Assembly (NCBI GenBank): GCA_030586155.1
Contig: CP130741.1
Span: 1,420,680-1,484,679, forward strand
Source: Eubacteriaceae bacterium ES3
Lineage (GTDB): Bacteria; Bacillota; Clostridia; Eubacteriales; Eubacteriaceae
Direction of reading: 5' to 3'
Length of the DNA stretch: 64,000 bases
Positions 48,763 to 63,397 of the stretch are shown one piece after another. The notes under the pieces were generated by a model. That model was given only the letters and a program-made list of their open reading frames with translations, was not told where the DNA came from and did not search any database. Numbering within the stretch: the stretch's first letter is position 1; each line of letters starts with the position of its first letter. The translations under genes were made by a program, and so were the position numbers.

Positions 48763-49101
48763 CTATTTGATATACACATTTTTGCTAAGTAAAAAAACAG
48801 CTGAAAAAATTATCAGCTGTTGAAAATTGGTCTGAATCAAGATTATTGGAGATGATCTGATTGGCATTGCGGAGAAATTTGTATTTAAATTTAGACAAAA
48901 AGATGGTAACATCTTTTCCTTGCGCAGTTCCGGTAAACTTGCAGGAATTGCGACATTATTTTGAACGAGAATCGTGATTGTACTTCCCTCACCTGCTTCA
49001 CTGATTTCTTCCAGAGCTTTATCGACATCAATATCGGGATTTTCCGGTTCTACAGGCGTTATCGGGCTTGAGAGGGTGTCATAACACGTACCGTCCTTCA
49101 T
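48763..49101 (-). pseudogene. Truncated copy of the ChW-repeat surface protein gene
   Basis: The frame carries SPITPVEP, then DIDVDKALEEISEAGEGSTI, nearly identical to the intact gene at 52635-53981. The first 20 bases match that gene's 5' region and are joined directly to the segment before SPITPVEP, so roughly 300 bases with the signal peptide are missing. After PASLPEL one base is lost relative to the intact gene (GGAACTGCG against GGAAGCTGTG), the frame shifts, and homology ends after GATGTTACCATC. It is the decayed end of the duplicated module. Confidence 0.8.
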
Positions 49102-49104
49102 TTC

Positions 49105-51950
49105 TTAAAGCACTGTTGGATTCTCTAGCGCATTATTTGACAGATTGTCCACAATATAGACTTCTATTACATCCCCTGTCTGTGCATTGAAGGCTGCACC
49201 AGCCCCGCTTAAGGTATCAAAATCGCCAATAATAAAGGTCGTTCCAATTTGCATATCGTTTCTTTTTTGTACAAACAAGCAGACTTCTTCCCCGTCATGT
49301 CCAGATACTTTGGAAATATTTACCCGAAAATAGGTAAAGCCCGATACACCCTCATTAATAGTTAGTGTCGGAATACCATCGTCAGTATAGCTGCCGGTGT
49401 AAGCGGCGTCGCCATCAGAGGCAATCAGGTAGGCCCCGTTACCGCAGCCTCTTTGGACGACAAGGGTATAGTCGCAAGAACCGGTTACGCCATTTTCATC
49501 CGTCGCGGTAATGGTAACGGCGTAGCTTCCCACCTCACTCTCAACGGGTGTACCGGTAAGAAGTCCGTCACTGTCAATACTCAGTGAGCCTGGCAATCCA
49601 GTCGCAGACCAGGTAAAGGCACCAGTCCCGCCGAGGATTCAAAGCTGAGATTATAGGTGATTCCAACCATGCCAACCGGCATTGAGCTGTTGGTGATTGT
49701 AATTTGATCCTGCCTTGTCACTTCAATTGTATAGGTTCGGGTGGTAACACCATCGCTGCCGGTTACCACTACGGTAATAGTGTTGGTGCCCACAGACAAA
49801 TTGACCGGCACAGAGGCATCATTACCATTGACCGTAACATCTGTCCCGCTATCGGTGGATGTTGGCGTTACCGTCAGACTGTCAACGGCATTTTCAACCG
49901 TTGCTGTATAGGCAGTAGTCGTTTTTGCAAAGGCTGGCGAAAGCGTCCCCTCTGATAAGGTCAAACCGGACAGGGTTGCGTCACTGTCCCCGCGATTAAT
50001 GGTTAAAGTATAGGTTTTAGTCGTCGCGTCCTGGGCAATGACCATCAGTTTAATTTCATTATCCCCCACTGAAAGCGGGATGGTCTTTAAAGCTCCATGG
50101 CTTAAAATGACACCGTCTAAGAGCATGATGGCCTTTTCATCAGAAGCTGAGGCGGTCAGCGTAATTTCATCCACATCGCTGCCTACATTGGCATAGTAAG
50201 CTGTAGTCCCTGCATCAAAGGCGGGACTTAAAGAGCCTGTATTTAGCGACAGGCTGGCTAAATTAGCATCACTGACTGTTCCATTCACAGAGAGTATATA
50301 GGATTTCTGGCTGCCGTCCTGAGCGGTTACGACAACCGCAATCATATTGGCGCCGTTATCAAGGTCAACGGATGCTTCAGAACCAGAAGTTGCCAGGCTG
50401 CCGTTAATGGTCATAGTTGCTCCGGGGTCAAGGGTCTGGGCAGTAATGCCGATGCTGTCGATGCCGGTAGCATCTACACTGTAGGCAGCGGTATCCGGAT
50501 CAAAGACAGGGTTTAAGCTACCCGTATTAACGGCAAGGCTCGAAAGGTCTGCCGGTGCTTCGGTGGTGAAGCTGGCACTATCGGCTGTCATGGTAGTCCC
50601 ATAGCTGTCCTGAAAACCGGAAATGTCTATGCTACAGCTTTGGTAGTAGTTTAAACCAGAATAGGGTATTGTATAGGTTCGACCGCTGTTAGACCAGGCC
50701 CCGCCACTGAGAGCAGTGCCATTAATCGATACCGTTCCGGTTACAGAAGTATCCATATCGTTATTAAAGGAGATGACTACATTTCCGTCAATAGGGGAAT
50801 CGTTGTCAGCTGGACTTATGTTGCCGATCATCGATGTTTTATCTGCTGTCCAAATGGCGTAAAGGGTTATATCTTCGGACACCGTAATACTGTCCCCTGG
50901 TGCATAAGATGTGCCGCTGCCGTCTGATTCTGAGTTCCACTCTATAAATGTATAACCTGGATTTGTAAAACCACTGGAATCATCGACTGTTGTTGTACCA
51001 TCTACAGGCAGAATCGAATTTTTAACGCCTGTTCCACCATTGTCTTCATAGTTGATCGAACATGCTCTAGCATAGAAGCCAGCATCTGTCCAATCCTCAT
51101 CGTCAGGCAGGCTAAAGCCATAGAGTGGCCCTGATATTGGAAAGTGCGTATGGCCTTTAACGGGTGTTAAAAAGGAATCGTTGGCTGAAAATACTAAGGC
51201 GTCACCCCCTATTGAAAGAGAACCACCACTTTTTCCCAATCCAGGACCGACATCACAATTTTCTCCAACCCAATGGAAGGCATACACCGTACCACCTGTT
51301 ATGCTAATCGTTCCTCCATCTCCGCGATCACCACCGCCAATACCGGCAGCATAAATTGCGCCGGTAGCTTTGACTGTGCCACCTGTTATGGTAGTCGTAC
51401 CACCATCTCCGTTACTTCCACCGTCGATACCGGCAGCCAAACCCCTACCGCTTGCAATCACCGTACCACCTGTTATGGTAATCGTACCAGCATCTCCATA
51501 TTCTCCACCGCCGATACCGGCAGCTTTCCTTCCGCCAGTTACATCAAGACTTCCGTCACCCTTTATTTCAAGTTCTGTACCGGCTTCAACTCGAATACCT
51601 GGATATTGGTCACTACTTATGAGTTTGTTTTCCCCACTTAGAATCAGGGTGTTACTGCTGCCTGTAAATATGAGTGCATAAATATAACTGTTGATTGTCA
51701 CCGAATCAAGCGTTAATGTGACATTCTCCTTACAAGAGATAAGAACATTTTTACTTCCGGTCAGCCTTGCAGTTGCGTCTTCTTCAACCACAACTAAATC
51801 ACCTGCTCCACAGCTACTGATATCAAATGTCTGGCCGTCAGAAACGGTATGAGTTGCTGCCAGGGCCGTCTGCGGAGACAGTCCGACAATCATCAACAAG
51901 CCAATCACGATCAACAAACATTTTGGTATTATTCTAATTGATTTTTCCAT
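49105..51950 (-). pseudogene. Large surface protein gene, third paralogue, broken by a frameshift
   Basis: The 789-residue N-terminal part (49581-51950) and the 163-residue C-terminal part (49105-49596) match successive regions of the two intact paralogues. Near 49630 the sequence reads GAATCCTCGGCGGGACTGG where the paralogues have one base more, so SFESSAG shifts out of frame and the next segment resumes at LPGSLSIDSDG. The signal peptide (PQTALA), about three Gly-rich repeats, the InlB-like unit, the Big_5-like unit, three cadherin-like units and the C-terminal domain are all present. A two-part product or a frameshift-corrected protein is possible; otherwise it is inactive. Confidence 0.8.
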
Positions 51951-51965
51951 TGCTCTTTCTCCCTT

Positions 51966-52196
51966 TTATTTTTTTATCATTTCAAAAACTTCGCTGGTTG
52001 ACAGTTCAACCTTATTGCCCCAGCTGATGACCCTGCCGTCGGTTTCAGCCCTCTGAAAAAAGGCTTCATCACGCAGCAGGCCAAAGCGGATGGTTTTAAG
52101 CTTAGGTTTTAAATTCAGGGTAATAATACTGCCGTTGGTAAGATTTACCTCCAGCTGATAATTTTCTTTTGCTTTTACTGCTTTGATTTCAGTCAT
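51966..52196 (-). CDS. DUF2442 protein (copy B)
   Basis: 76 residues from ATG 52196, with GAAGGAG nine bases upstream; the TTG at 52214 has no such site. DUF2442 features are EIKAVKAKENYQLEVNLTNG near the N-terminus, LNLKPKL, and ISWGNKVELSTSEVFEMIKK at the end. The fold is thought to be a small DNA-binding-like or NAC-type domain of unknown function. It lies 15 bases upstream of the broken surface protein gene and behind a promoter-like element. It is almost identical to the copy at 60498-60728. Confidence 0.8.
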   Translation of the reverse strand: MTEIKAVKAKENYQLEVNLTNGSIITLNLKPKLKTIRFGLLRDEAFFQRAETDGRVISWGNKVELSTSEVFEMIKK

Positions 52197-52260
52197 AAAA
52201 GTTCGCTCCTTCAATTCATACTCTCTTATTATTTATTGTACAATAGCTGGTTTCTGCCTG

Positions 52261-52290
52261 TATACTACCCACCGGGTGGTTTTGAGGGAG
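52261..52290 (-). promoter_or_regulatory. Regulator-box promoter element, copy B
   Basis: On the minus strand, TCAAAAC (52279-52285) is followed by the near-palindrome CCACCCGGTGG (52269-52279) and a TAGTAT -10-like hexamer (52262-52267). No -35 consensus is present, as in activator-dependent promoters. It matches the element at 60794-60823 base for base in its core and lies about 65 bases before the DUF2442 start. Confidence 0.6.
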
Positions 52291-52318
52291 TTTTTATGGT
52301 TTTGTATTTCAGGTATAA

Positions 52319-52353
52319 AAACAACTGCCATACTCATTGTATAGCAGTCGTTA
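52319..52353 (-). terminator. Terminator after the regulator remnant
   Basis: On the minus strand, ACGACTGCTATAC, a short loop, and GTATGGCAGTTGT form a stem followed by TTTT. The intact module has the same structure at 60852-60888. Confidence 0.75.
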
Positions 52354-52380
52354 AGTGCTGGATTTTGTGCTGCGGGTAGT

Positions 52381-52625
52381 TTTATACTTCGCTCGTAATA
52401 TTAATTTTTTCAAAGCAGGTGTTTCGGGTAATCAGTTCAATATGAATATTCTCAATCTCATTTTCGATCAGCATCGTCAGAAAGAGGTCAACTTCCAGAT
52501 TTTTGAGCAGATAGCAGTCGTCCAGAACTAAAAAGTCTATTGAAGATTATTAAGAAGCTTGAGGACTTTCCGTAAAGTGACTAAGTCGTCAGTACAACCA
52601 AGACTGAAAGCTTGTGATAGAGTTC
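52381..52625 (-). pseudogene. Remnant of a second MalT-like LuxR regulator gene
   Basis: Bases 52381-52415 match the 3' end of the intact regulator gene (60917 onward) and bases 52411-52625 match its region 62936-63160. The two are joined at TTTTCAAAG, a 9-base string present at both places in the intact gene, so about 2 kb was lost by deletion between these short repeats. The 5' end is also missing. Nothing translatable of useful length remains. Confidence 0.85.
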
Positions 52626-52634
52626 TCCTTTAAA

Positions 52635-53981
52635 TCAGCTTTCAAAAAATGGATCTTGCGTGTTACCTGGTACTGCTTCCCCTTTAGCGACAACTACAAT
52701 CCTGATCGCCTCCAGTCGGTAGCCAAACCCGGCAGTTCCGGCTGCTTCCCCATTTTTAGCCCAATCCAACCATCCAAAATTCTGGGCATGGACCTGATAG
52801 TAAATGTCATAGTTGTCCGCATCATCACCCGTCAGATTAATCTTGATCGCTTCCAGTCGCAGTGCCTGTCCTTCGGTCCCGCTCATTGCACCATCCGATA
52901 CAAAATCCTGCCAGCCAATATTTTGGACATGAGTTGAATATTCGACACCAATGTTTTCCTGATCCTCAAGTTCTATTTTAATGCCTTCAAGCCTTAAACT
53001 CTGTCCTTCGGTTCCGCTCATTTCACCATTCGATACAAAACCCTGCCAGCCGATGTTCTCAACATGGGTCTGATAGCTGCAGATGATGTCTTCAGTTACC
53101 GGTTCCAGCGTTGTTGAAATAACATATTTTGATGCATGGCTAAATTCGAAACAAACACATCCATCACTGACTTTTGCTTCTTCCTGATATTCAAGCTCAC
53201 CTGTTTCTTCATTGTAAAAGTAGAGGTAAGCTGTTTTTTCGTTTAAAGTAGCGTCCATTTTGTAAGTTAAGATTGTAGTAAATGGAAGCTCCCCGGAATA
53301 GGTGATTTCTATTTCCATAGAATCAGAATCACCAGCCAGTTTAGATAATTCAGCATCTTCGATTTCTGTAATACTTAAATCAAAGCTTTCTATTCCCTCA
53401 GGAAGATCAGTGATGCTCATACCATTTATCGCCCAGCTATAGTCTCCAAAGTCAAAAATGATGGTAACATCTTTTCCTTGCACAGCTTCCAGTAAACTTG
53501 CAGGGATTGCGGCATTATTTTGAACGGGAATCGTGATTGTACTTCCCTCACCTGCCTCACTGATTTCTTCCAGAGCTTTATCGACATCAATATCGGGATC
53601 TACCGGTTCTACAGGCGTTATCGGACTTGGATATGAGGGTGTCTTAACATATACTGTAAAGGTCGCACTGGTTACCTCAGAGCCGGCACCAATAACTATC
53701 GTTAGAGTTGTCGGATCAATCTCCGGTACAACAAATTCTGTACTATAAGAACCGTCATTAGCTGTCAGTACCGGATTTATATAGACAATATTACCATCTG
53801 AATCCGTCGCTTTTACGGTGATCCATGTATCTGGATCATAGGTTCCCGACAGAGTAACAGTTTCGCCCGCTACTCCGCTTTGTTTACTCAGTTCCAGGGT
53901 TACTTCCGTCGCTAAAACCGTATTAGTTAGAAGCAGCATAAAAAGGATACTGTTTAATAAGGTTAATGTTATTTTTTTCAT
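52635..53981 (-). CDS. Secreted protein with three C-terminal ChW repeats
   Basis: 448 residues from ATG 53981, chosen because GGGAGGCGG lies just before it; the ATG at 53999 has no site. A signal peptide (KKITLTLLNSILFMLLL, cleaved near VLA) is followed by an Ig-like unit at about 25-115, a Pro/Asp/Glu linker, a middle domain (about 135-290) and three ChW repeats of about 45 residues (YSTHVQNIGWQDFVSDG is the clearest, then GTEGQ.LRLEAIKI). ChW repeats mediate surface or substrate binding in clostridia. The gene is 21 bases downstream of the second surface protein gene. Confidence 0.82.
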   Translation of the reverse strand: MKKITLTLLNSILFMLLLTNTVLATEVTLELSKQSGVAGETVTLSGTYDPDTWITVKATDSDGNIVYINPVLTANDGSYSTEFVVPEIDPTTLTIVIGAGSEVTSATFTVYVKTPSYPSPITPVEPVDPDIDVDKALEEISEAGEGSTITIPVQNNAAIPASLLEAVQGKDVTIIFDFGDYSWAINGMSITDLPEGIESFDLSITEIEDAELSKLAGDSDSMEIEITYSGELPFTTILTYKMDATLNEKTAYLYFYNEETGELEYQEEAKVSDGCVCFEFSHASKYVISTTLEPVTEDIICSYQTHVENIGWQGFVSNGEMSGTEGQSLRLEGIKIELEDQENIGVEYSTHVQNIGWQDFVSDGAMSGTEGQALRLEAIKINLTGDDADNYDIYYQVHAQNFGWLDWAKNGEAAGTAGFGYRLEAIRIVVVAKGEAVPGNTQDPFFES

Positions 53982-54002
53982 CAATCCGCCTCCCTTCATT
54001 TC

Positions 54003-57000
54003 TTAAAGCACTGTTGGATTCTCTGTCGTATTATTTGACAGATTGTCCACAATATAAACTTCAATCACGTCGCCTGCCTTGACGTTAAAGCCGGCGCCCG
54101 CATAGTTGACCGTATCGTAATCCGCCCTGTTAAAGCAAAAGGCAATTTGAGAGCCATTTCGTATCAGCACATAGACACAGGTCTCTTTACCACTGTGGCC
54201 GGCAACCGGCGAAATATTCACACCAAAATAGGTAAAGCCCGATACACCCTCATTAACGGTCAAGGTCGGAATGCCATCATCGGTATAGCTACCGGTGTAA
54301 GCGGCATCTCCGTCAGAGGCAATCAGGTAGGCACCGTTACCACAACCTGTTTGAATAACAAGCGTGTAGTCACGAGAGCCAATCACATCATTTCCATCTT
54401 TTGCGGTAATGGTAACGGCGTAGCTTCTCACTTCACTCTCTAGAGGTGTACCGGTAAGAAGTCCGTCACTGTCTAACGTAAGTGAGCTAGGCAGACCCGC
54501 AGCAGACCAGGTAAAGGCACCAGTCCCGCCGGAGGCTTCAAAGCTTTCATTGTAGTTGACTCCGACCATTCCAATCGGCACTGAGCTGTTGGTGATTGTT
54601 ATTTGGTCCTGCCTTGTCACTTCAATTTTATAGGTTCGGGTGGTAACGCCATCGCTGCCGGTTACCACAATCGTAATGGTATTGGTACCCCCTGTTAGAT
54701 CGACAGGCACAGACGCATCATCGCCATTGACAGTAATACTTGCTCCGCTGTCGGTCGCTGTTGGTGTTACCGTCAGGCTGTCAACGGCATTTTCAACGGT
54801 TGCTGTATAGGCAGTAGTCGTTTGTGCAAAGGCTGGCGAAAGCGTCCCCTCCGAAAGGGTTATACTGGACAGGGTTGCGTCACTATCGCCACGATTGATA
54901 GTCAGGCTATAAGTCTGAGTGCTTGCGTCCTGGGCAATGACCATCAGTTTAATTTCATTATCCCCCACTGAAAGCGGAATCGTCTTTGAAGATCCTTGGC
55001 TCAAAATGATGCCATCTACAAGCATGACGGCCTTTGTGTCAGAGGCTGAGGCGGTCAGCTTAATTTCATCTACATCGCTGCCCACATTAGCGTAGTAAGT
55101 GGTGGTCCCTGCATCAAAGGCTGGACTTAAGGAGCCGGTATTTAGTGATAGGCTGGCCAAGTTAGCATCGCTGACCGTTCCGTTAACAGAAATAATATAG
55201 GATTTCTGGCTGCCGTCCTGGGCGGTTACGACAACCGGAATCATATTGGCGCCGTTATCAAGGTCAACGGATGCTTCTGTACCAGAAGTTGTTAGGCTGC
55301 CGTTAATGGTCATGCTTGCTCCGGGGTCAAGGGTCTGGGCGGTAATGCCGATGCTGTCAATGCCGGAGGCATCCACACTGTAGGCGGCTGTACCCGGATC
55401 AAAGACAGCGTTTAAGCTGCCTGTATTAACGGCGAGACTTGAAAGGTCTGCCGGAGATTCAGAGGTAAAGCTGGCACTATCATCTGTCATGGTAGTCCCA
55501 TAGGAATCCTGAAAACCGGAAATATCTATGGTACAGCTTTGGTAGTAGTCTAAACCATAATAAGGTATTGTATAGGTTCGACCGCTGTTTGACCAGGCCC
55601 CGCCACTGAGAGCAGTGCCATTAATCGATACCGTTCCAGTTACGGAGGTGTCCATATCGTTATTAAAGGTGATGATTACATTTCCGTCAATCGGCGCATC
55701 ATAGTCAGCTGGACTGATACTCCCGATCATCGATGTTTTATCTGCTGTCCAAATGGCGTAAAGGGTTATATCTTTGGACACCGTAATATTGTCCCCTGGT
55801 GCATAAGATGTGCCGCTGCCGTTCGCCTTAGTATTCCACTCTTTAAAGTTGTACCCTGGATTTTCAAACCCGCTGTCATCATCGACTGTTATTGTACCAT
55901 TTACCGGCATATTCGCATTTTTAGTGCCTGTACCACCATTGTCGTCATAGGTCATCACACACGCTCTGGCATAGATTCCGGCATCCGTCCATCCATCCGG
56001 CAGACTAAAGCCATAGAGCGGTCCTGATTTTGAAAAGTGTGTATGGGTTATTGTATTGGGCGTTAAGCATGCATCGTTCGCTAAAAATATTAATGCATCT
56101 CCACTGATCGAAAGTGAACCACTACTTGAAGAATTACCAGGGCCAATATCTTTATTACCCGATGAGCCACGCTTGGCAAATACAGTACCGCCTGTTATTG
56201 AAATTGTGCCGCCACCTAAAGAAGAACTGCCGCCGATACCGGCACCTCCATATCCTCCGGTTGCAGTAACGGTACCCCCTGTTATGGTAGTAATTGTATT
56301 GCCATATACAGAAGAACCGCCGCCGATACCGGCACCACCATAGCCGCCGGTTGCAGTGACAGTACCGCCTGATATTGTAATTGTACCGTTATCCGAATTG
56401 CGGCCGCCGCCGATACCGGTAGCAGAATCGCCGCCGGTTGCAGTGACAGTACCGCCTGATACTGTAATCGTACCGCCATCTCCAGAAGAACCGCCGCCGA
56501 TACCGGCACCTTTATCTCCGCCGGTTACAGTGACAGTACCGCCTGATACTGCAATCGTACCGCCATCTCCATGATCGCCGCCGCCGATACCGGCACCTCC
56601 CTCACCGCCGGTTGCAGTAACTATGCCGCCTGATATTGTAATCGTACCGCTATCTGCATAGCAGCAGTAGCCGCCGCCGATACCGGCACCTTTATCTCCG
56701 CCGGTTACAGTAACAGTACCACCAGATATTGTAATCGTACCGCCATCGGTAGAGAAGCCGCCGCCGATACCGGCACCATATTTTCCGCCAGTTACATCAA
56801 GAATGCCATCTCCTTTAATTTCTAGCTTTGTGTCTGTTTCTACTTGGATACCAGGCTCATTAGAACCGCTTTTAAATGTGTTTGTTCCACTTAGAATCAG
56901 GGTGTTACCGCTGCCTGAAAAGTTGAGGGCACAGGCATTAGATGTTGCACTGACATCGCTTGTCACCGAATCAAGCGTTAGTGTGACACCCTCGCTACAA

Positions 57001-57215
57001 GAGATAAGAACATTTTGACTTCCGGTCAGCGTTGCGGTTGCGCCAGCATCTACCTCAACTATATCGCCGGCAGCACAGCTACTAATATCAAATGTCTGGC
57101 TGTCAGAAACGGTATGAGTTGCTGCCAGGGCCGTCTGCGGAGAAAGTCCGACAATCATCAACAAGCCAATCACGATCAACAAACATTTTGGTATTATTCT
57201 AATTGATTTTTCCAT
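54003..57215 (-). CDS. Giant secreted repeat protein, paralogue 2
   Basis: 1070 residues. In order: signal peptide (cleaved after LSPQTALA); an 80-residue N-terminal domain; about seven Gly-rich repeats of 27-31 residues with the core GGTITISGGTVTATGG and GAGIGGG; an InlB-type repeat (FKEWNTKANGSGTSYAPG, LYAIW); a Big_5-like unit (PIDGNVIITFNNDMD); three cadherin-like beta-sandwich units each starting with LSSLAVNTGSL-like text; a He_PIG unit (WSAAGLPSSLTLDSDGLLTG); and a conserved C-terminal domain of about 90 residues (GCGNGAYLIASDGDAAYTGS). There is no LPXTG or membrane anchor. It probably forms an extended surface or matrix fibre. Confidence 0.85.
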   Translation of the reverse strand: MEKSIRIIPKCLLIVIGLLMIVGLSPQTALAATHTVSDSQTFDISSCAAGDIVEVDAGATATLTGSQNVLISCSEGVTLTLDSVTSDVSATSNACALNFSGSGNTLILSGTNTFKSGSNEPGIQVETDTKLEIKGDGILDVTGGKYGAGIGGGFSTDGGTITISGGTVTVTGGDKGAGIGGGYCCYADSGTITISGGIVTATGGEGGAGIGGGDHGDGGTIAVSGGTVTVTGGDKGAGIGGGSSGDGGTITVSGGTVTATGGDSATGIGGGRNSDNGTITISGGTVTATGGYGGAGIGGGSSVYGNTITTITGGTVTATGGYGGAGIGGSSSLGGGTISITGGTVFAKRGSSGNKDIGPGNSSSSGSLSISGDALIFLANDACLTPNTITHTHFSKSGPLYGFSLPDGWTDAGIYARACVMTYDDNGGTGTKNANMPVNGTITVDDDSGFENPGYNFKEWNTKANGSGTSYAPGDNITVSKDITLYAIWTADKTSMIGSISPADYDAPIDGNVIITFNNDMDTSVTGTVSINGTALSGGAWSNSGRTYTIPYYGLDYYQSCTIDISGFQDSYGTTMTDDSASFTSESPADLSSLAVNTGSLNAVFDPGTAAYSVDASGIDSIGITAQTLDPGASMTINGSLTTSGTEASVDLDNGANMIPVVVTAQDGSQKSYIISVNGTVSDANLASLSLNTGSLSPAFDAGTTTYYANVGSDVDEIKLTASASDTKAVMLVDGIILSQGSSKTIPLSVGDNEIKLMVIAQDASTQTYSLTINRGDSDATLSSITLSEGTLSPAFAQTTTAYTATVENAVDSLTVTPTATDSGASITVNGDDASVPVDLTGGTNTITIVVTGSDGVTTRTYKIEVTRQDQITITNSSVPIGMVGVNYNESFEASGGTGAFTWSAAGLPSSLTLDSDGLLTGTPLESEVRSYAVTITAKDGNDVIGSRDYTLVIQTGCGNGAYLIASDGDAAYTGSYTDDGIPTLTVNEGVSGFTYFGVNISPVAGHSGKETCVYVLIRNGSQIAFCFNRADYDTVNYAGAGFNVKAGDVIEVYIVDNLSNNTTENPTVL

Positions 57216-57234
57216 TTCTCGTTCTCCCTTTAAT

Positions 57235-57290
57235 TTTTTTTCATTTCAAAAAATTCGCTGGTTGACAGTTCCACCTTATTGCCTAGCTAA
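57235..57290 (-). pseudogene. Remnant of a third DUF2442 gene
   Basis: On the minus strand this reads GNKVELSTSEFFEMKKN then stop, matching the last 16 residues of the DUF2442 proteins. It lies just upstream of the paralogue 2 surface gene, in the place the complete DUF2442 gene holds in the other units. It shows that [DUF2442 + surface gene] was duplicated as a unit. Confidence 0.8.
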
Positions 57291-57342
57291 TTACCAGCCA
57301 TTAGTTTTCACCTGGCTTAAAAGTCAAGCTTATTTCTATCTT

Positions 57343-60300
57343 CTAAAGAACAGTGGGATTATCCGAGGTATTATTTGTCAAATCATCGACGATATAGACT
57401 TCGATTACATCTCCAGATTTAATATTAAAAGCTGCATAAGCGCTTCCTACTGTGTCAAAATCCGCTTTAACGGCATTCATACCAAGCTGAACACCGTCTC
57501 TTTTGTGGACAAATAAACAGACTTCTTCCCCGGCATGTCCGGTTACCGGCGAAATGTCTACGCCAAAATAGGTAAAGCCCGATACACCCTTATTAACGGT
57601 CAGAGTCGGAATGCCGTCATCGGTATAGCTGCCAGTGTAAGCGGCATCTCCGTCAGAAGCTATCAGGTAGGCACCGTTACCACAACCTGCTTGGATAACA
57701 AGCGTGTAGTTACGAGAGCCAGTTACATCATTTCCATCTTTTGCGGTAATGGTAACGGCGTAGCTACCAACCTCACTCTCAACGGGTGTGCCGGAGAGCA
57801 GTCCTGAACTGTCTAAACTAAGTGAGCCTGGTAGACCTGTCGCTGACCAGGTAAAGACATCAGTCCCGCCGGAGGCTTCAAAGCTTTCATTGTAGGTGAC
57901 CCCAACCATGCCAACCGGCATTGAGCTGTTGGTGATTGTAATCTGGTTCTGCCTTGTCACATTTATGGTATAGGTTCGGGTGGTAACGGCATCGCTGCCG
58001 GTTACCACAATCGTAATGGTATTGGTACCTACTGTCAGATTGACCGGCACAGAGGCATCATTGCCATTGACCATAATATCTGCTCCGCTGTCGGTCGCTG
58101 TTGGTGTCACCGTCAGACTGTCAACAGCATTTCCAACGGTTGCTGTATAGGCAGTGGTCGTTTGTGCAAAGGTCGGCGAAAGCGTCCCCTCTGATAGGCT
58201 CAAATCGGACAGGGTTGCGTCACTGTCACCGCGGTTGATGGTCAGGCTATAGGTTTGAGTCGATGCATCCTGGGCAATGACCATCAGTTCTACTTCATTA
58301 TCCCCCACTGAAAGCGGAATGGTCTTTGAAGCTCCCTGGCTTAAAATGACGCCGTCTAAAAGCATGATGGCCTTTTCATCAGAAGCTGAGGCAGTCAGTG
58401 TAATTTCATCTATATCGCTGCCCACATTGGCGTAGTAAGTGGTAGTCCCTGCCTCAAAGGCCGGACTTAATGAGCCGGTATTTAGTGACAGGCTGGCCAA
58501 GTCGGCAACGCTGACCGTACCGTTAACGGAGATGATATAGGATTTCTGGCTGCTGTCCTGGGCGGTTACAACAATTGGTATCATATTGGCGCCGTTATCG
58601 AGGCTGACACTTACTTTAGTGCCGGAAGTTGCTTCCGACCCGTTAATGGTCATGCTTGCTCCGGAATCAAGGGACTGGGCAGTAATGCCGATGCTGTTAA
58701 TGCCGGTGGCATCCACGCTGTAGGCGGCTGTATCCGGGTCAAAGCCCGGGCTTAGGCTGCCCGTATTAACGGCAAGGCTCGAAAGGTCTGCCGGTGCTTT
58801 AGTGGTGAAGCTGGCACTATCGGCTGTCATGGTTGTCCCATAGGAATCCTGAAAACCGGAAATATCTATGCTACAGCTTTGGAAGTAGTCTAAACCAGAA
58901 TAAGGTATTGTATAGGTTCGACCGCTGTTAGACCAGGCCCCGCCACTGAGAGCAGTGCCATTAATCGATACCGTTCCGGTTACTGAGGTATCCATATCGT
59001 TATTAAAGGTGATGACTACATTTCCGTCAATCGGCGCATCGTTGTCAGCTGGACTGATATTCCCAACCATTGCTGCTTCTTCAGGTGTCCAAATGGCATA
59101 CAGGGTTAGATCACCGGATAGTCTAATACTTTCACCTGGTTCATAACTTGTTCCACTGCCGTCCACTCTGGTATTCCACTCTTTAAATGTGTATCCTGGA
59201 TTCATAAAGCTGCTATCGTCAGCAATTGTTATAATAATGCCGACGAGTGAATTTTCTAGTTCACCATCACCTGTCCCTCCGTTGTCGTCATATGCCAACA
59301 AACAGGGTATACCATAGATGCCCGCATCAGTCCATCCGTCCGGTAGTCCATAGAAAGAATATGATGCCAAATAGTGTATATGGGTTTGTGTATCGGGTGT
59401 TAAACAGGTATCATTTGCTAAAAACACCAAGGCGTCACCGCTGATTGAAAGTGAACCATCACTTGCACTAGTACCTGGGCCAATATCGTTATTACCGTTA
59501 TCACCATGTTTTGCATATATAGTACCGCTGGATATAGAAATCGTGCCTCCTCCTCCAGCTGCACCACCGCCGATACCGGCACTACCGTCTCCGCCGGTTG
59601 CAGTGACTGTACCACTTGATATCGTGATCGTACCGCCATCTCCCATACCATCAACGGCAAACATTCCGCCATTAAAACCTCCTCCAATAGCAGCACCTCC
59701 GTAACCTCCGATTGCATTGATCGTACCACCCGTTATGGTAATCGTACCGCCATTTGCATAAGCGCCACCGCCGATGCCAGCACCACAATATCCACCGGTT
59801 GCATTAACGATACCGCTCGATATTGTGATCGTGCCTCCATCTCCATACATACTGCCTCCGATACCGGCGCTGTAACCTCCACTAGTTGCAGTAACCGTAC
59901 CACCCGATATCGTAATCGTACCGCCAGCTCCTTCGAAACCGCCGCCGATACCGGCAGCGAAGGCTCCGCCGGTTGCAGTGACTGTACCACTCGTTATGGT
60001 AATCGTACCGCCAGTTCCATTATTGCCACCGCCGATGCCGGCACCATTATCTCCGCCTGTTCCATCAAGACTTCCATCACCCTGTATTTCAAGTTCAGTC
60101 TCGTCTTCCACAAGGACACCCGCTTCATTTTCTCCGCTTTTAAGCATACTTGCCCCACTTAAAATCAGGGTGTTACCGCTGCCTGTAAAGCAAAGAGCAC
60201 AAGCATCATATGTTTCACTGACATCGCTTGTCACCGAATCAAGCGTTAGTGTGACACCCTCACCACAAGAGATAAGAACATTTTGACTTCCGGTCAGTGT

Positions 60301-60498
60301 TGCGGTTACACCTGCATCTACATTAACTGTATCGCCGGCAGTACAGCTGCTAATATCAAATGACTGGCCGTCTGATACGGTGTGCGTTACCGCCCGAGCT
60401 ATCTGCGGCTGCAGCGCGATGATCATAAACAAACCAATGATAATCAATAAGCATTGCGGTATTCTTCTAATTGATTTTTCAATTCCTCTTTCTCCCAT
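57343..60498 (-). CDS. Giant secreted repeat protein, paralogue 1
   Basis: 1051 residues with the same domain order as its neighbour, including about six Gly-rich repeats (one expanded around GGGFNGGMFAVDGMGDGG), an InlB-like unit, a Big_5-like unit, three cadherin-like units, He_PIG and the 90-residue C-terminal domain. The ATG at 60496-60498 overlaps the DUF2442 stop as TAATG. The position of the start codon in the paralogues, behind GGGAGAAAGAG, is ATT here. Either the coupled ATG or the rare ATT could be used. The signal peptide differs (QIARAVTHTV) but remains functional in form. First structural gene of the intact module. Confidence 0.85.
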   Translation of the reverse strand: MGERGIEKSIRRIPQCLLIIIGLFMIIALQPQIARAVTHTVSDGQSFDISSCTAGDTVNVDAGVTATLTGSQNVLISCGEGVTLTLDSVTSDVSETYDACALCFTGSGNTLILSGASMLKSGENEAGVLVEDETELEIQGDGSLDGTGGDNGAGIGGGNNGTGGTITITSGTVTATGGAFAAGIGGGFEGAGGTITISGGTVTATSGGYSAGIGGSMYGDGGTITISSGIVNATGGYCGAGIGGGAYANGGTITITGGTINAIGGYGGAAIGGGFNGGMFAVDGMGDGGTITISSGTVTATGGDGSAGIGGGAAGGGGTISISSGTIYAKHGDNGNNDIGPGTSASDGSLSISGDALVFLANDTCLTPDTQTHIHYLASYSFYGLPDGWTDAGIYGIPCLLAYDDNGGTGDGELENSLVGIIITIADDSSFMNPGYTFKEWNTRVDGSGTSYEPGESIRLSGDLTLYAIWTPEEAAMVGNISPADNDAPIDGNVVITFNNDMDTSVTGTVSINGTALSGGAWSNSGRTYTIPYSGLDYFQSCSIDISGFQDSYGTTMTADSASFTTKAPADLSSLAVNTGSLSPGFDPDTAAYSVDATGINSIGITAQSLDSGASMTINGSEATSGTKVSVSLDNGANMIPIVVTAQDSSQKSYIISVNGTVSVADLASLSLNTGSLSPAFEAGTTTYYANVGSDIDEITLTASASDEKAIMLLDGVILSQGASKTIPLSVGDNEVELMVIAQDASTQTYSLTINRGDSDATLSDLSLSEGTLSPTFAQTTTAYTATVGNAVDSLTVTPTATDSGADIMVNGNDASVPVNLTVGTNTITIVVTGSDAVTTRTYTINVTRQNQITITNSSMPVGMVGVTYNESFEASGGTDVFTWSATGLPGSLSLDSSGLLSGTPVESEVGSYAVTITAKDGNDVTGSRNYTLVIQAGCGNGAYLIASDGDAAYTGSYTDDGIPTLTVNKGVSGFTYFGVDISPVTGHAGEEVCLFVHKRDGVQLGMNAVKADFDTVGSAYAAFNIKSGDVIEVYIVDDLTNNTSDNPTVL

Positions 60499-60728
60499 TA
60501 TTTTTTAATCATATCAAAAACTTCGCTGGTTGACAGTTCTACCTTATTGCCCCAACTGATGACCCTGCCGTCGGTTTCAGCCCTCTGAAAAAAGGCTTCA
60601 TCGCGCAGCAGGCCAAAGCGGATGGTCTCTAGCTTAGGTTTTAAATTCAGGGTAATCATGCTGCCGTTAGTAAGGTTAACTTCCAGCTGATAATTTTCCT
60701 TTGCTTTTACTGCTTTGATTTCAGTCAT
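60498..60728 (-). CDS. DUF2442 protein (copy A)
   Basis: 76 residues, nearly identical to the copy at 51966-52196, with GAAGGAG nine bases before the ATG. It begins MTEIKAVKAKENYQLEVNLT and ends STSEVFDMIKK. Its stop and the start of the surface protein gene share a base (TAATG), so the two are translated together. A promoter-like element lies about 65 bases upstream. DUF2442 has no established activity; its constant position ahead of the surface genes suggests a regulatory or folding-related role. Confidence 0.82.
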   Translation of the reverse strand: MTEIKAVKAKENYQLEVNLTNGSMITLNLKPKLETIRFGLLRDEAFFQRAETDGRVISWGNKVELSTSEVFDMIKK

Positions 60729-60793
60729 AAAAGTTTACTCCTTCAATTCAGACTTAGTTATTATTTATTGTACAATAGGGGGTTTCTGCCTGT

Positions 60794-60823
60794 ATACTAC
60801 CCACCGGGTGGTTTTGAGGGAGT
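60794..60823 (-). promoter_or_regulatory. Regulator-box promoter element, copy A
   Basis: On the minus strand, TCAAAAC (60811-60817), the near-palindrome CCACCCGGTGG (60801-60811) and TAGTAT (60794-60799), with the same spacing as copy B. Probably bound by the MalT-like regulator encoded just upstream. Confidence 0.6.
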
Positions 60824-60851
60824 TTTTTTATGGTTTTGTACTTTAAGGTAT

Positions 60852-60888
60852 AAAAAAACTGCCATAAAGATTGTATAACAGTTGTTTA
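60852..60888 (-). terminator. Terminator of the MalT-like regulator gene
   Basis: On the minus strand, AACAACTGTTATACA and TATGGCAGTTTTTTT form an imperfect stem with a T-run, about 30 bases past the regulator stop and before the promoter of the DUF2442 gene. Confidence 0.65.
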
Positions 60889-60916
60889 GTACTGGATATT
60901 GCACAGCGGATAGTTT

Positions 60917-63397
60917 TTATACTTCGCTCGTAATATTAATCTTTTCAAAGTGCTGCTTTAACAGGGTCCTGTTATTAATGGACAGTTTTGAATAGACCGA
61001 TTTAAGCGCTGATTTGACCGTATTGGCCGAAATAAAGAGTTTGTCGGCAATTGCTTTATTAGTTAGTCCCTGGGCTGCCAGAAGGGCAATTTCTTTTTCG
61101 CGGTCGGTGAGGCTTTGTTTGTCTTCAGGAAAGTATTTCGTTTTTAATTTTTCTCTGGCATTTTGATAGGTTTTAGAAAGGGCAAGAATATTTCTGAGTT
61201 CTGTTTTATAAATCCCCTGAGCTGCCAACTTTTTAAGAATTGGTCTGAGATAGTCACTGTTCTCGGCAAAGGGCATATAAAGTCCGTCTGGCATGGCAAT
61301 GTCCAGCGCTTTTTTCAGGCTTTCGAGGGCCTGGGCAGGACGATCTAATTTAGCATTTCCTGCCGCCAGATAAAGATGAGTGTAGATTACCCCCAGCATA
61401 TTAGGATAAAAGCCGGCAGTTTCTAGAAAATAATCCCCGCTGCCGATCAGTTTGGTATAGTGTTCATTGATCAGGAGTACCCGGCCGTAGATGATATTGA
61501 ACATGGCAAAAGAAGCGTGGAGCAGACGGATTTCACCGCGTTCCGGACGGGCCAGGCTTTCTGGTATTTTATACTTCTGATCACATTGGGCGTAAAAATA
61601 CATCTGACACAGCTCCAGATTATGCAGGTAATGATAATCAATGCGGCTTGCCATCTCTTCCTGCATCAGCGATTGTAGATGAAAGATATGAGGAAAATCC
61701 CCTTTCATCCAGTCAATACGCATCTGCAGAAACCGTGCTGCCAGTACAATGCCCCACTGATCAGATGGTTGCGCTTTATGAAGGGCTTTATTCAAGGCTA
61801 CTTCGGCACTTAAAAAGTCACCCTGATTATAATGATATTCGGCCGCCATCATTTCACTGCCTCCGCGGCCATTGCCTTTTGTCAGACTTTCATAACAAGG
61901 CAGGCCGATTTTTAAAGTATGTATATTATCCAAAAGTTTGCCGCTTTCCCGGTGATAAAGGTATAAAACCGAGAGGGAACCGTGAGTCCAGTCGGATTTC
62001 AGATCGTAAATTGAAGTTGATCCGGTCAGCAGCTGCCGGGATTTCTCAAAATGAGCGGCCATTTCGTTCAGATTATTGAAGCAGGAAACACCGTAGATAA
62101 GTTCAAATTCTCCGTACAGGGTCTTGCGCTGCTTGTCGGTTAAAGAAGGATCCGAACCAATATTTGCGGCCACTTCCTTAAACGTGTTTGTAAAAGCCGC
62201 AAATTCATTGTGCAGAAGAAAATGAACACACAGAATCAGCAAGGCGTAATGATGACGACTTCTGATTTCTTCTGGACATTCATCGAGATAATGACGCAGG
62301 GTTGCCATATTCTGACGGGTAAAGAGCCGAGCTTTTTCTTCCTCGATAGAGTTTAAAATCTGTTCAAAGTCGCCGCAGGCGTACAGGAACTGCCGGGCAA
62401 TGGTATATTCGCCTTGTTCAAGGTACCAGGCAGCGGCCTTTTGAGTCAGGATTTCCTGCTGACCATCTTCTTCCAGCTTTTCCTGGAGATAGTTTCTAAA
62501 CAGACTGTGAATCTGATAAGTTTTCGATTGTTGGTCATAAGCGATAAAGGCATTTTGCCTGACGATTGAATCCAGCATTGCCGCAGTGTCCGGTTTTCCC
62601 CATATAAACGCGGCCAGCCTGAGCGAAAAATGATTAAAAACGGACATCCTTGTTATAAAGTCCTGCTGTTTACTGGTAAGCGCTTTATAAACAGTTTTTT
62701 CAATCAGCTTGTAGATGCTGTCCGTGGGCTTTAAAATGCCATCTTCAATAAAGTTCAGAAGCATCAGGTAGAGGGCACTGATCCAGCCTTCGGTCATTGA
62801 ATGAAGCATTCTGGCCTGTTCTTGGCTAATTGTTACACTGCATTCCTGGTAGTATTCAGTAATGTCTTTTTCGCGTAGCTCAAAGGCTTCTCTGGTTAGA
62901 TGGTAGAGCTGTCCTTTAAGTGATAATTCTTCCATTTTTTCAAAGCTGGTGTAACGGGTAATCAGAACAATGTGAAGATTCTCAATCTTATTTTCGATCA
63001 GCATAGTCAGAAAGAGATCAACTTCCGGACTTTTAAGCAGGTGGTAGTCGTCCAGAACTAAAAAGTATTTAGTTGAGAATTTAAGATTATTAAGAAGCCT
63101 GAGGACTTCCCGCATAGAGACAGAGTCGTCAGGAAAACCGAGGCTGGAAAGCTCGTAATAGATTTCTTCTTTCAGTTCACCCAACAGTCTGGCAAAAGAA
63201 TCCCAGAAGCTGTCGATTGAGTCATCATAGATCTTCAGCCAGAGCACCTGATCGTCTGTAGCTTTGTGAAAGTGTCGGATTGCGGTGGTTTTTCCGTACC
63301 CCATGGGCGCTTCCACTATCGTGAGAGGATATTCCCGAATTGGTGAAAGTTTATTAAGCAGTTTTGTTGTGAAGTGCAGATTTTGAGTCTTCAGCAA
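60917..63397 (-). CDS. MalT-like LuxR-family transcriptional activator
   Basis: 826 residues from a TTG start with AAAGGAGG six bases upstream. A STAND-type NTPase occupies the N-terminus: Walker A APMGYGKTT at 30-38, LVLDDYHLL as Walker B near 120, and VLITRYTSF as sensor. A winged-helix part and about 400 residues of helical TPR-like repeats follow, and the LuxR helix-turn-helix is at 763-826 (LTDREKEIALLAAQGLTNKA, ISANTVKSALKSVYSKL). This is the architecture of MalT, which binds ATP and an inducer to activate promoters lacking a -35 box. The adjacent surface genes are its obvious targets. It is intact, unlike the copy at 52381-52625. Confidence 0.9.
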   Translation of the reverse strand: MLKTQNLHFTTKLLNKLSPIREYPLTIVEAPMGYGKTTAIRHFHKATDDQVLWLKIYDDSIDSFWDSFARLLGELKEEIYYELSSLGFPDDSVSMREVLRLLNNLKFSTKYFLVLDDYHLLKSPEVDLFLTMLIENKIENLHIVLITRYTSFEKMEELSLKGQLYHLTREAFELREKDITEYYQECSVTISQEQARMLHSMTEGWISALYLMLLNFIEDGILKPTDSIYKLIEKTVYKALTSKQQDFITRMSVFNHFSLRLAAFIWGKPDTAAMLDSIVRQNAFIAYDQQSKTYQIHSLFRNYLQEKLEEDGQQEILTQKAAAWYLEQGEYTIARQFLYACGDFEQILNSIEEEKARLFTRQNMATLRHYLDECPEEIRSRHHYALLILCVHFLLHNEFAAFTNTFKEVAANIGSDPSLTDKQRKTLYGEFELIYGVSCFNNLNEMAAHFEKSRQLLTGSTSIYDLKSDWTHGSLSVLYLYHRESGKLLDNIHTLKIGLPCYESLTKGNGRGGSEMMAAEYHYNQGDFLSAEVALNKALHKAQPSDQWGIVLAARFLQMRIDWMKGDFPHIFHLQSLMQEEMASRIDYHYLHNLELCQMYFYAQCDQKYKIPESLARPERGEIRLLHASFAMFNIIYGRVLLINEHYTKLIGSGDYFLETAGFYPNMLGVIYTHLYLAAGNAKLDRPAQALESLKKALDIAMPDGLYMPFAENSDYLRPILKKLAAQGIYKTELRNILALSKTYQNAREKLKTKYFPEDKQSLTDREKEIALLAAQGLTNKAIADKLFISANTVKSALKSVYSKLSINNRTLLKQHFEKINITSEV

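Follow-up and report, generated by a model that had tools for sequence, protein, structure and literature searches.

A recurrent pairing of a MalT-like regulator with a DUF2442 protein ahead of varied surface-protein genes in Bacillota

In a stretch of 64,000 nucleotides from Eubacteriaceae bacterium ES3 (GenBank assembly GCA_030586155.1, contig CP130741.1, positions 1,420,680 to 1,484,679; hereafter the window), taken from a 3.39 Mb genome in a single contig, genes for a MalT-like regulator (REG), a small DUF2442 protein, giant surface proteins and a ChW-repeat protein follow one another in two head-to-tail cassettes on the minus strand, the second of which has decayed around an intact DUF2442 gene. 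An earlier note on this DNA, made from the sequence alone, had proposed that these genes form a system, and the proposal is supported by the recurrence of regulator, DUF2442 and surface protein in many families, by the co-phylogeny of the first two and by a conserved operator-promoter before DUF2442. What emerges around DUF2442, a domain of unknown function, is a regulatory module that is real and recurrent and for which we infer a partner mechanism. Taken as a whole, the arrangement is probably a surface-display module in which REG activates a DUF2442-surface operon from an inverted repeat, with DUF2442 as the dedicated partner of REG, most likely a feedback anti-activator.

That the arrangement arose by chance or is peculiar to this locus can be rejected, since it recurs at the level of the class, in a search with the regulator only and across 398 genomes of the phylum. 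Of 61 genomes covered by a protein search with the window DUF2442, two held relatives, namely G011 and the genome of the window itself. Profile A1, made from four DUF2442s, served to search 391 genomes at class level, and profile A3, made from 18 REG-linked DUF2442s, the 398 genomes of the phylum. Both returned many full-length relatives, and around the best places REG, DUF2442 and mostly a large signal-peptide-like protein lay side by side, either codirectional or divergent; on plasmids and viral contigs there was no match or no confirmed relative. Near a REG were 14 of the 20 class-level places examined and, in loci L104-L143, 29 of the 32 REG-type DUF2442s (within 10 kb), the exceptions being L125 at a contig edge, L126 with only a REG fragment (72 bits) at a contig end, and L140. 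Profile A3 was itself built from REG-linked sequences, and its tests are the searches of new genomes. Profile A4, built from regulators only, gave at least 590 stretches and at least 502 relatives, of which the best 80 were kept, representing 78 distinct named loci (L156/L157 and L174/L179 are near copies). A DUF2442 was present in 49 of these 78 best-scoring loci, with 43 of their 50 DUF2442s within 500 bp, and the 49 include loci of Anaerovorax, Petroclostridium, Desulfosporosinus, Papillibacter, Pelosinus, Butyrivibrio, Gemmiger, Agathobaculum and Fusibacter. Recurrence in other Clostridia, which the earlier note had named as a check on its idea, was thus found in many families.

The co-occurrence of REG and REG-type DUF2442 is strong. 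REG, counted at E <= 1e-60, was found in 34 of the 398 phylum genomes, among them all 24 genomes with a strong DUF2442 hit (hypergeometric 7e-31), where the limit for a strong hit (E < 1e-13) was chosen after viewing the list and the genome of the window (G000) counts in both the 24 and the 34. Genomes with weaker DUF2442 hits only had a REG in 2 of 55 cases, each with the hit beside the regulator. Counted by place, with 31 strong DUF2442s and 4 weaker ones seen beside a regulator, and with split regulator pieces merged and some fragments kept, a DUF2442 lay within 10 kb of 30 of the 43 REG places and within 1 kb of 25.

The association is confined to one subfamily of DUF2442. When the DUF2442s of all fetched loci were scored against two models, 101 entries, duplicates between collections included, were of the REG type and 44 of the canonical type. 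Among the former, 97 lay within 10 kb of a REG (89 of the 93 distinct domains), while none of the 44 canonical ones, which come mainly from the same order, was near a REG and 24 of them lay within 1 kb of a DUF4160 gene, as detected with a home-made profile of 9 neighbours of canonical DUF2442 whose label was borne out by Pfam in 7 of 7 proteins tried. A quick tree, drawn from an alignment of few columns and with many unresolved forks, agrees with the split and has 3 changes between rows with a regulator or chemosensory link and the rest. The second window copy, DUF2442 #2, falls just under the cut-off of PF10387 (20.2 against 23.9 bits). For DUF2442 #1, the predicted structure (predicted local distance difference test, pLDDT, 94.5) has its best fold match in NE0471 of Nitrosomonas europaea (PDB 2auw; template modelling score 0.81 by query length, root-mean-square deviation 1.8), and sequence searches of the PDB with DUF2442 gave no credible match. 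NE0471 carries its own helix-turn-helix, and its structure is marked as unpublished in PMC9410881; the fold is alike, and the difference is that the DNA-binding part in the window is a separate protein. A 182-aa protein in L133 (9880-10428), beside a regulator, seemingly holds two DUF2442 domains, with two A3 matches in one frame.

DUF2442 is the antitoxin DhiA of the dhiTA systems of Dickeya, in which DhiT is DUF4160 (PMC8198452). DhiA by itself lowers the activity of its own promoter by about 50%, and the DhiTA complex lowers it by 70-99% across three systems tested (PMC8198452). The system of the window appears to share the DUF2442 family with dhiTA and differs from it in having no DUF4160, in having an 800-aa regulator as neighbour and in belonging to a separate sequence subfamily. 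No DUF4160-like gene was detected in any of the 78 best-scoring REG loci or within 1 kb of any of the 101 REG-type DUF2442s, window included, and a toxin-antitoxin module was rejected on these grounds. Elsewhere in the genome of the window there are two ordinary, dhiTA-like DUF4160-DUF2442 pairs, at C1:2493462-2493677 (L061, its DUF4160 confirmed by Pfam) and at 2600315-2600530 (L063).

REG and its DUF2442 have diverged together. Over 71 regulator-DUF2442 pairs the pairwise distances correlate with r = 0.91 (Spearman 0.62), and none of 2000 permutations reached this r, the highest giving 0.09; repeated regulator or upstream sequences were dropped here, as in the repeat-enrichment, hairpin and repeat-to--10 counts below. 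Paralogues within one genome also track each other (DUF2442 and regulator, respectively, 24% and 29% in G239, 95% and 87% in G710, and 37% and 36% in G567), so a shared species tree alone is not enough to account for the co-phylogeny.

The regulator is MalT-like without being MalT. Its GerE domain scores 57.2 bits (cut-off 23.5) and its AAA_22 domain 27.5 bits (cut-off 27), with AAA_16 at 27.6, below the cut-off of 32.6; GYGKTT is invariant in the Walker A of its nucleoside triphosphatase (NTPase) domain, and a MalT-like TPR region gives a weak match (17.7 bits against a cut-off of 45, which a relative in L129 passes with 58.4). Identity as a MalT ortholog was rejected, the equivalog NF003420 scoring 160 against 537 bits, so that of the label MalT-type given in the earlier note the likeness holds and the identity does not. 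What REG has in common with the LAL family and with MalT of E. coli is the NTPase, the C-terminal GerE domain and, apparently, a TPR-like middle. MalT acts at sites known as MalT boxes, whereas the system in the window has a palindromic repeat about 30 nt before the -10, a position beside surface proteins and a DUF2442 gene as the partner of REG.

The operator-promoter before DUF2442 has good support. The inverted repeat CCACCCGGTGGGTAGTATACAG precedes DUF2442 in identical form in both window copies, and its first 18 bases occur exactly at two sites in the genome, both at the DUF2442 copies; with up to 3 mismatches one further site appears, against two for a reversed control pattern. ACTACCCGRTGGGTAGT is common to the clade of the window and ATCCCCCRTATGGGGGAT to most divergent loci, G010 and G011 having a variant of the latter. 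The pattern CCC-N2-6-GGG stands upstream of DUF2442 in 37 of 73 loci; shuffling gives 4.7, and of 526 control upstreams 41 have it. The arms of the repeat co-vary, positions 1-3 being complementary in 32, 30 and 33 of 36 (expected 18.7, 17.0 and 16.4), with position 4 adding little (32 against 27.7) and position 5 nothing. Across six repeat groups, whose patterns were chosen by eye, the centre lies 29-31.5 nt before TAnnnT in 44 of 48 loci, window included, and an unsupervised search with no pattern places a repeat 28-32 nt before a -10 in 35 of 74 loci (mean 1.7 and maximum 5 in 40 shuffles). With the -10 starting at -12, the repeat centre would fall near -42. LuxR-type activators of class II promoters usually bind here, the lux box being at -42.5. 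The promoters described here resemble that class in their inverted repeat centred near -42, and differ from it in that the repeat sequence varies by clade and that codirectional loci have the -10 in a terminator-like hairpin. An operator upstream of REG in the window was rejected, the only candidate being a 36-mer with 12 mismatches at 63644-63609.

Of 59 codirectional loci, 51 have the hairpin in the REG-DUF2442 interval (2.9 in shuffles), as does 1 of 12 divergent loci, where it is the operator repeat itself. TAnnnT stands in the left arm or loop of 49 of the 51 codirectional hairpins, 130 bp before DUF2442, in a count made without a control. Perhaps the promoter is built into the terminator of the previous gene; in our reading the hairpin would end the regulator transcript and transcripts from the DUF2442 promoter would start inside the hairpin and escape it. 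For the window the hairpin search found no REG-DUF2442 hairpin; the weak stem listed in Table 1, with a counterpart in copy 2 at about 52352-52317, is absent from both the terminator scan and the hairpin search.

The genes downstream of DUF2442 are mostly secreted-looking, as judged by a crude hydrophobicity score for signal peptides with repeated domains and 3 edge cases per group dropped. Enough sequence follows 90 of the REG-type DUF2442s for the next gene to be judged. A codirectional gene begins within 500 bp of 81 of them, and this gene is signal-like in 69 of the 81, 56 of these 69 encoding at least 500 aa. Background open reading frames of the same loci were signal-like in 200 of 898 cases, 48 of them with at least 500 aa, and the genes after canonical DUF2442 in 2 of 21. 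The payload varies while the regulator-DUF2442 pair stays. Pfam identified SLH domains in 7 of 9 downstream proteins tried, also in Anaerovorax, as well as CWB2 (L148), a ShlB/two-partner secretion (TPS) pair in Pelosinus (L214) and ChW in Acetobacterium. The downstream set of Butyrivibrio L197 includes a type VII secretion protein, EssC, which scores 1115 bits against a cut-off of 778; L206 shares its FHA plus FtsK architecture, and in some loci the next genes are, by reading, only small or lipoprotein-like. In G010 and G011 a regulator 28-29% identical to that of the window is divergent from DUF2442, which is followed by a ChW protein of 1842 or 1950 aa; their DUF2442s are 96% identical and their surface proteins differ (He_PIG and ChW in one, LRR_5, Big_3 and ChW in the other), the REG-DUF2442-LRR/ChW locus of G010 being L047. 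The cadherin-like partner on which the earlier note had built is true of the window, and elsewhere its place may be taken by SLH, ChW, CWB2, LRR, a two-partner-secretion pair or a type VII gene set. As a separate observation, in L197, L206 and L212 (Butyrivibrio or Lachnospiraceae) the regulator-DUF2442 pair stands before gene sets with a 1530-aa protein.

A different kind of context is found in G742, G651 and G793 (L126-L128), where a DUF2442-like domain, recognized by profile A3, forms the C-terminal part of a receiver protein, with Response_reg in all three. The fusion is grouped with CheR, CheD and MCP genes in L127 and L128, with a regulator about 7 kb away, and L126 has the contig-end regulator fragment mentioned above. 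Two DUF2442-like genes lie near CheW and MCP genes in G448 (L129), with a regulator beside them. Being fused to a phosphorylation switch near the same regulator, DUF2442 may be what carries a signal to REG, as this arrangement suggests.

In the mechanism that we favour, REG, a MalT-like, ATP-binding regulator of the LuxR type, would bind the inverted repeat near -42 as a dimer, since the site is symmetric, and once bound would switch on the operon, with DUF2442 first and the secreted or surface proteins after it. DUF2442, a relative of the antitoxin DhiA that has no DUF4160 partner here, would then bind REG and, once made, hold it back. That REG acts through the operator is very likely, and that DUF2442 acts on REG is rather probable; that the action is one of damping is a tentative reading, held slightly short of even. 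Damping is suggested by DUF2442 being the first product of an operon that REG would activate. MalT is damped by the partner proteins MalK, MalY and Aes, and the analogy with these inhibitors adds to the argument from gene order. So does the repression by DhiA of its own promoter (PMC8198452). Within the window, one intact REG would drive both operators in trans, one serving DUF2442 #1, surface A, surface B and the ChW gene and the other the decaying cassette of DUF2442 #2. The transcript from 60,728 to 52,635 predicted in the earlier note fits the positions of operator 1 and its -10 box. The two DUF2442 copies have 15 nucleotide differences, with 11 silent and 3 replacement codons (dN, replacement divergence, 0.017; dS, silent divergence, 0.298), and such purifying selection within a decayed cassette suggests that DUF2442 acts in trans; the decay of cassette 2 may also be recent and the changes in DUF2442 older. 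On a wider scale, we would give even chances to the view that throughout Bacillota a MalT-like STAND activator has taken on a fold of an antitoxin family, DUF2442/DhiA, as its dedicated gate. The result would be a general switch for surface display with an interchangeable payload (S-layer, ChW, two-partner or type VII secretion), in which some lineages have the gate fused to a receiver and set by a chemosensory array.

Several results weigh against this mechanism, or against the generality of the pair. A DUF2442 was absent from 29 of the 78 best-scoring REG loci, in four of which (L150, L167, L202 and L221) the regulator runs off the contig, and from the 10 kb around 13 of the 43 REG places in the phylum genomes. 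The regulator loci without DUF2442 include Faecalibacterium L195, L156 (beside a molybdopterin oxidoreductase) and the Acetobacterium locus of L175 and L193, and the regulator relative of G017 precedes an LRR/ChW protein without any DUF2442. REG relatives can therefore do without DUF2442, and of the constant pairing put forward in the earlier note the recurrence is upheld and the constancy is not. The unsupervised search placed no repeat at 28-32 nt in 39 of 74 loci and picked a different -10 for the window itself; the repeat is not enriched upstream of REG in codirectional loci (5 of 61), and shuffled sequence yields promoter-like and terminator-like consensus sites at least as often as the window region does. 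Downstream, 12 of the 81 genes are not signal-like, and 9 of the 90 DUF2442s have no codirectional gene within 500 bp. Segment-wise co-variation (mirror tree) picks out no contact surface, and Pfam finds no DUF2442 in the receiver fusions or in two small chemosensory-type proteins tried, all of which are assigned by profile A3.

The main rival to feedback damping makes DUF2442 something that REG requires in order to activate, either a co-activator or a signal-receiving subunit, with the receiver fusions as its phosphorylation-controlled form. Co-occurrence and co-phylogeny would be expected equally in this case, and both the receiver-DUF2442 fusions in chemosensory loci and the survival of DUF2442 #2 after the decay of its cassette speak for it; we nevertheless consider it unlikely, given that REG relatives without DUF2442 exist and that in the window DUF2442, belonging to the predicted target operon of REG, would be in short supply until that operon was switched on. 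It is more doubtful still that DUF2442 acts on the surface protein or its messenger, as an export chaperone or through translation coupling, and not on REG. Its position directly before a secreted gene, with a one-base overlap between the stop of DUF2442 #1 and the start of surface A, would suit such a role, as would the DUF2442-like ends that precede surface genes lacking an adjacent regulator, one in G012 (L043) and one, a weak match of 15 residues, in G010 (L042). The near identity of the G010 and G011 DUF2442s in front of surface proteins with different domains argues against it, as do downstream genes ranging from SLH to two-partner and type VII secretion and DUF2442 distances that follow those of REG. 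An antitoxin, or a relic of one lodged for stability, is quite improbable; DUF2442 is indeed the DhiA of dhiTA (PMC8198452), but the REG subfamily is separate by sequence and context, and no DUF4160 accompanies it in the 78 best-scoring REG loci or within 1 kb of its 101 entries. Least credible of all is a REG unrelated to its neighbours and associated with them through shared inheritance of a mobile island, for which one may cite the possible acquisition of the window locus discussed below, but the association spans deep divergence and both divergent and codirectional layouts, and the clade-specific repeats keep one distance from the -10.

In the accessible portions of the open-licence PMC literature (including PMC8198452 and PMC12724237), nothing was found that connects DUF2442 with surface genes or with regulators of the LuxR or MalT type, nor anything closer on MalT-like regulators of surface genes, and the impression of the earlier note that this is not a described system holds to that extent. 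The module is apparently a widespread, undescribed way of controlling surface display. It gives DUF2442 a testable role and ties an antitoxin family to the control of giant surface proteins, and the palindrome, of which each regulator clade has its own at a constant spacing from the -10, is a handle for predicting the regulons of large LuxR-type regulators in anaerobes. The pair is present in gut-type genera (Butyrivibrio, Gemmiger and Agathobaculum), and surface-coat changes in these bacteria would be easier to explain if a constant switch served a changing payload.

The features of the window are collected in Table 1. All the genes named in the earlier note were found on the minus strand where it had placed them, and its account of the second cassette, with an intact DUF2442, a deleted regulator, a frameshifted surface gene and a truncated ChW gene, was confirmed in every part. 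For the first cassette the intact series stands, and the surface gene described as extra is recast: surface B looks like a third, 5'-truncated cassette, since the 3' end of a DUF2442 gene ahead of it suggests that there were three cassettes in the window. The domains of surface A and surface B are Cadherin-like, Beta_helix_3, Flg_new and He_PIG. The similarity of the copies is far above chance, with 82% over 1056 bp between 60950-59900 and 52415-51379 and 78-85% between the surface genes, and in the regulator remnant 52631-52404 matches 63172-62934 at 82%, with the last residues of the regulator joined on.

Table 1. Features of the regulator-DUF2442-surface cassettes, by position in the window
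Feature	Position	Strand	Basis
Regulator (REG), MalT/LAL-type, 826 aa, intact open reading frame; N-terminal NTPase with MGYGKTTA, C-terminal GerE helix-turn-helix	60917..63397	-	Open reading frame and domain search
Weak terminator-like stem after REG, AACTGTTAT...ATGGCAGTT and T run	60852..60883	-	Read by eye; putative
Operator 1, CCACCCGGTGGGTAGTATACAG, inverted repeat, centre 31.5 nt before -10	60790..60811	-	Repeat search; putative
-10 box TACAAT of the DUF2442-surface operon	60767..60772	-	Consensus match
DUF2442 #1, 76 aa, REG-linked subfamily	60498..60728	-	Profiles, predicted fold
Surface A, 1051 aa, beta-helix / List-Bact / cadherin-like / He_PIG	57343..60498	-	Domain search
3' remnant of third DUF2442, 54 bp, last 18 codons with stop, GNKVELSTSEFFEMKKN*, directly before surface B	57230..57283	-	Sequence comparison
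Surface B, 1070 aa, same architecture as surface A	54003..57215	-	Domain search
ChW-repeat secreted protein, 454 aa, ChW 187 bits	52635..53999	-	Domain search
Regulator remnant, internal deletion, C-terminal end joined on	52385..52631	-	Self-comparison
Operator 2, identical to operator 1	52258..52279	-	Repeat search; putative
-10 box TACAAT of copy 2	52235..52240	-	Consensus match
DUF2442 #2, intact, 96% identical to #1	51966..52196	-	PF10387 and comparison of copies
Surface C, 5' part, frameshifted	49581..51950	-	Open reading frame and domain search
Surface C, 3' part, other frame	49105..49596	-	Open reading frame and domain search
ChW-gene remnant	48763..49101	-	Homology of 49086-48896 to 53649-53453, 92%

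The nearest relatives found for the window pair are those of Anaerovorax odorimutans (regulator 62% and DUF2442 78% identical), and the full-length regulators found in Acetobacterium, the genus of the window, are 28-31% identical to the window REG, with 35% for one 282-residue fragment (G018). Because the pair is nearer to Anaerovorax than to the Acetobacterium regulators, acquisition of the window locus is a possibility.

A regulator split into several frames stands beside an intact DUF2442 in L109, L113 and L098/L215, much as the second window copy combines a broken regulator with an intact DUF2442; recurrent loss, on/off switching and assembly errors are all possible causes. In L158 and L216, relatives of REG adjoin Nif11-like genes and not DUF2442, these being weak matches (17.9 and 21.0 bits) below the cut-off of 23.8. 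Just downstream of the decayed cassette of the window lies a gene for a glycyl radical enzyme of 817 aa (46100-48553, minus strand), for which none of the matched NCBIfam families passed its cut-off, the best being TIGR01774 with 449 against 678 bits. Finally, the surface gene at 9307-12540 of L042 in G010 is about 64-68% like that of the window and follows genes that look, by reading, like type I restriction-modification genes.

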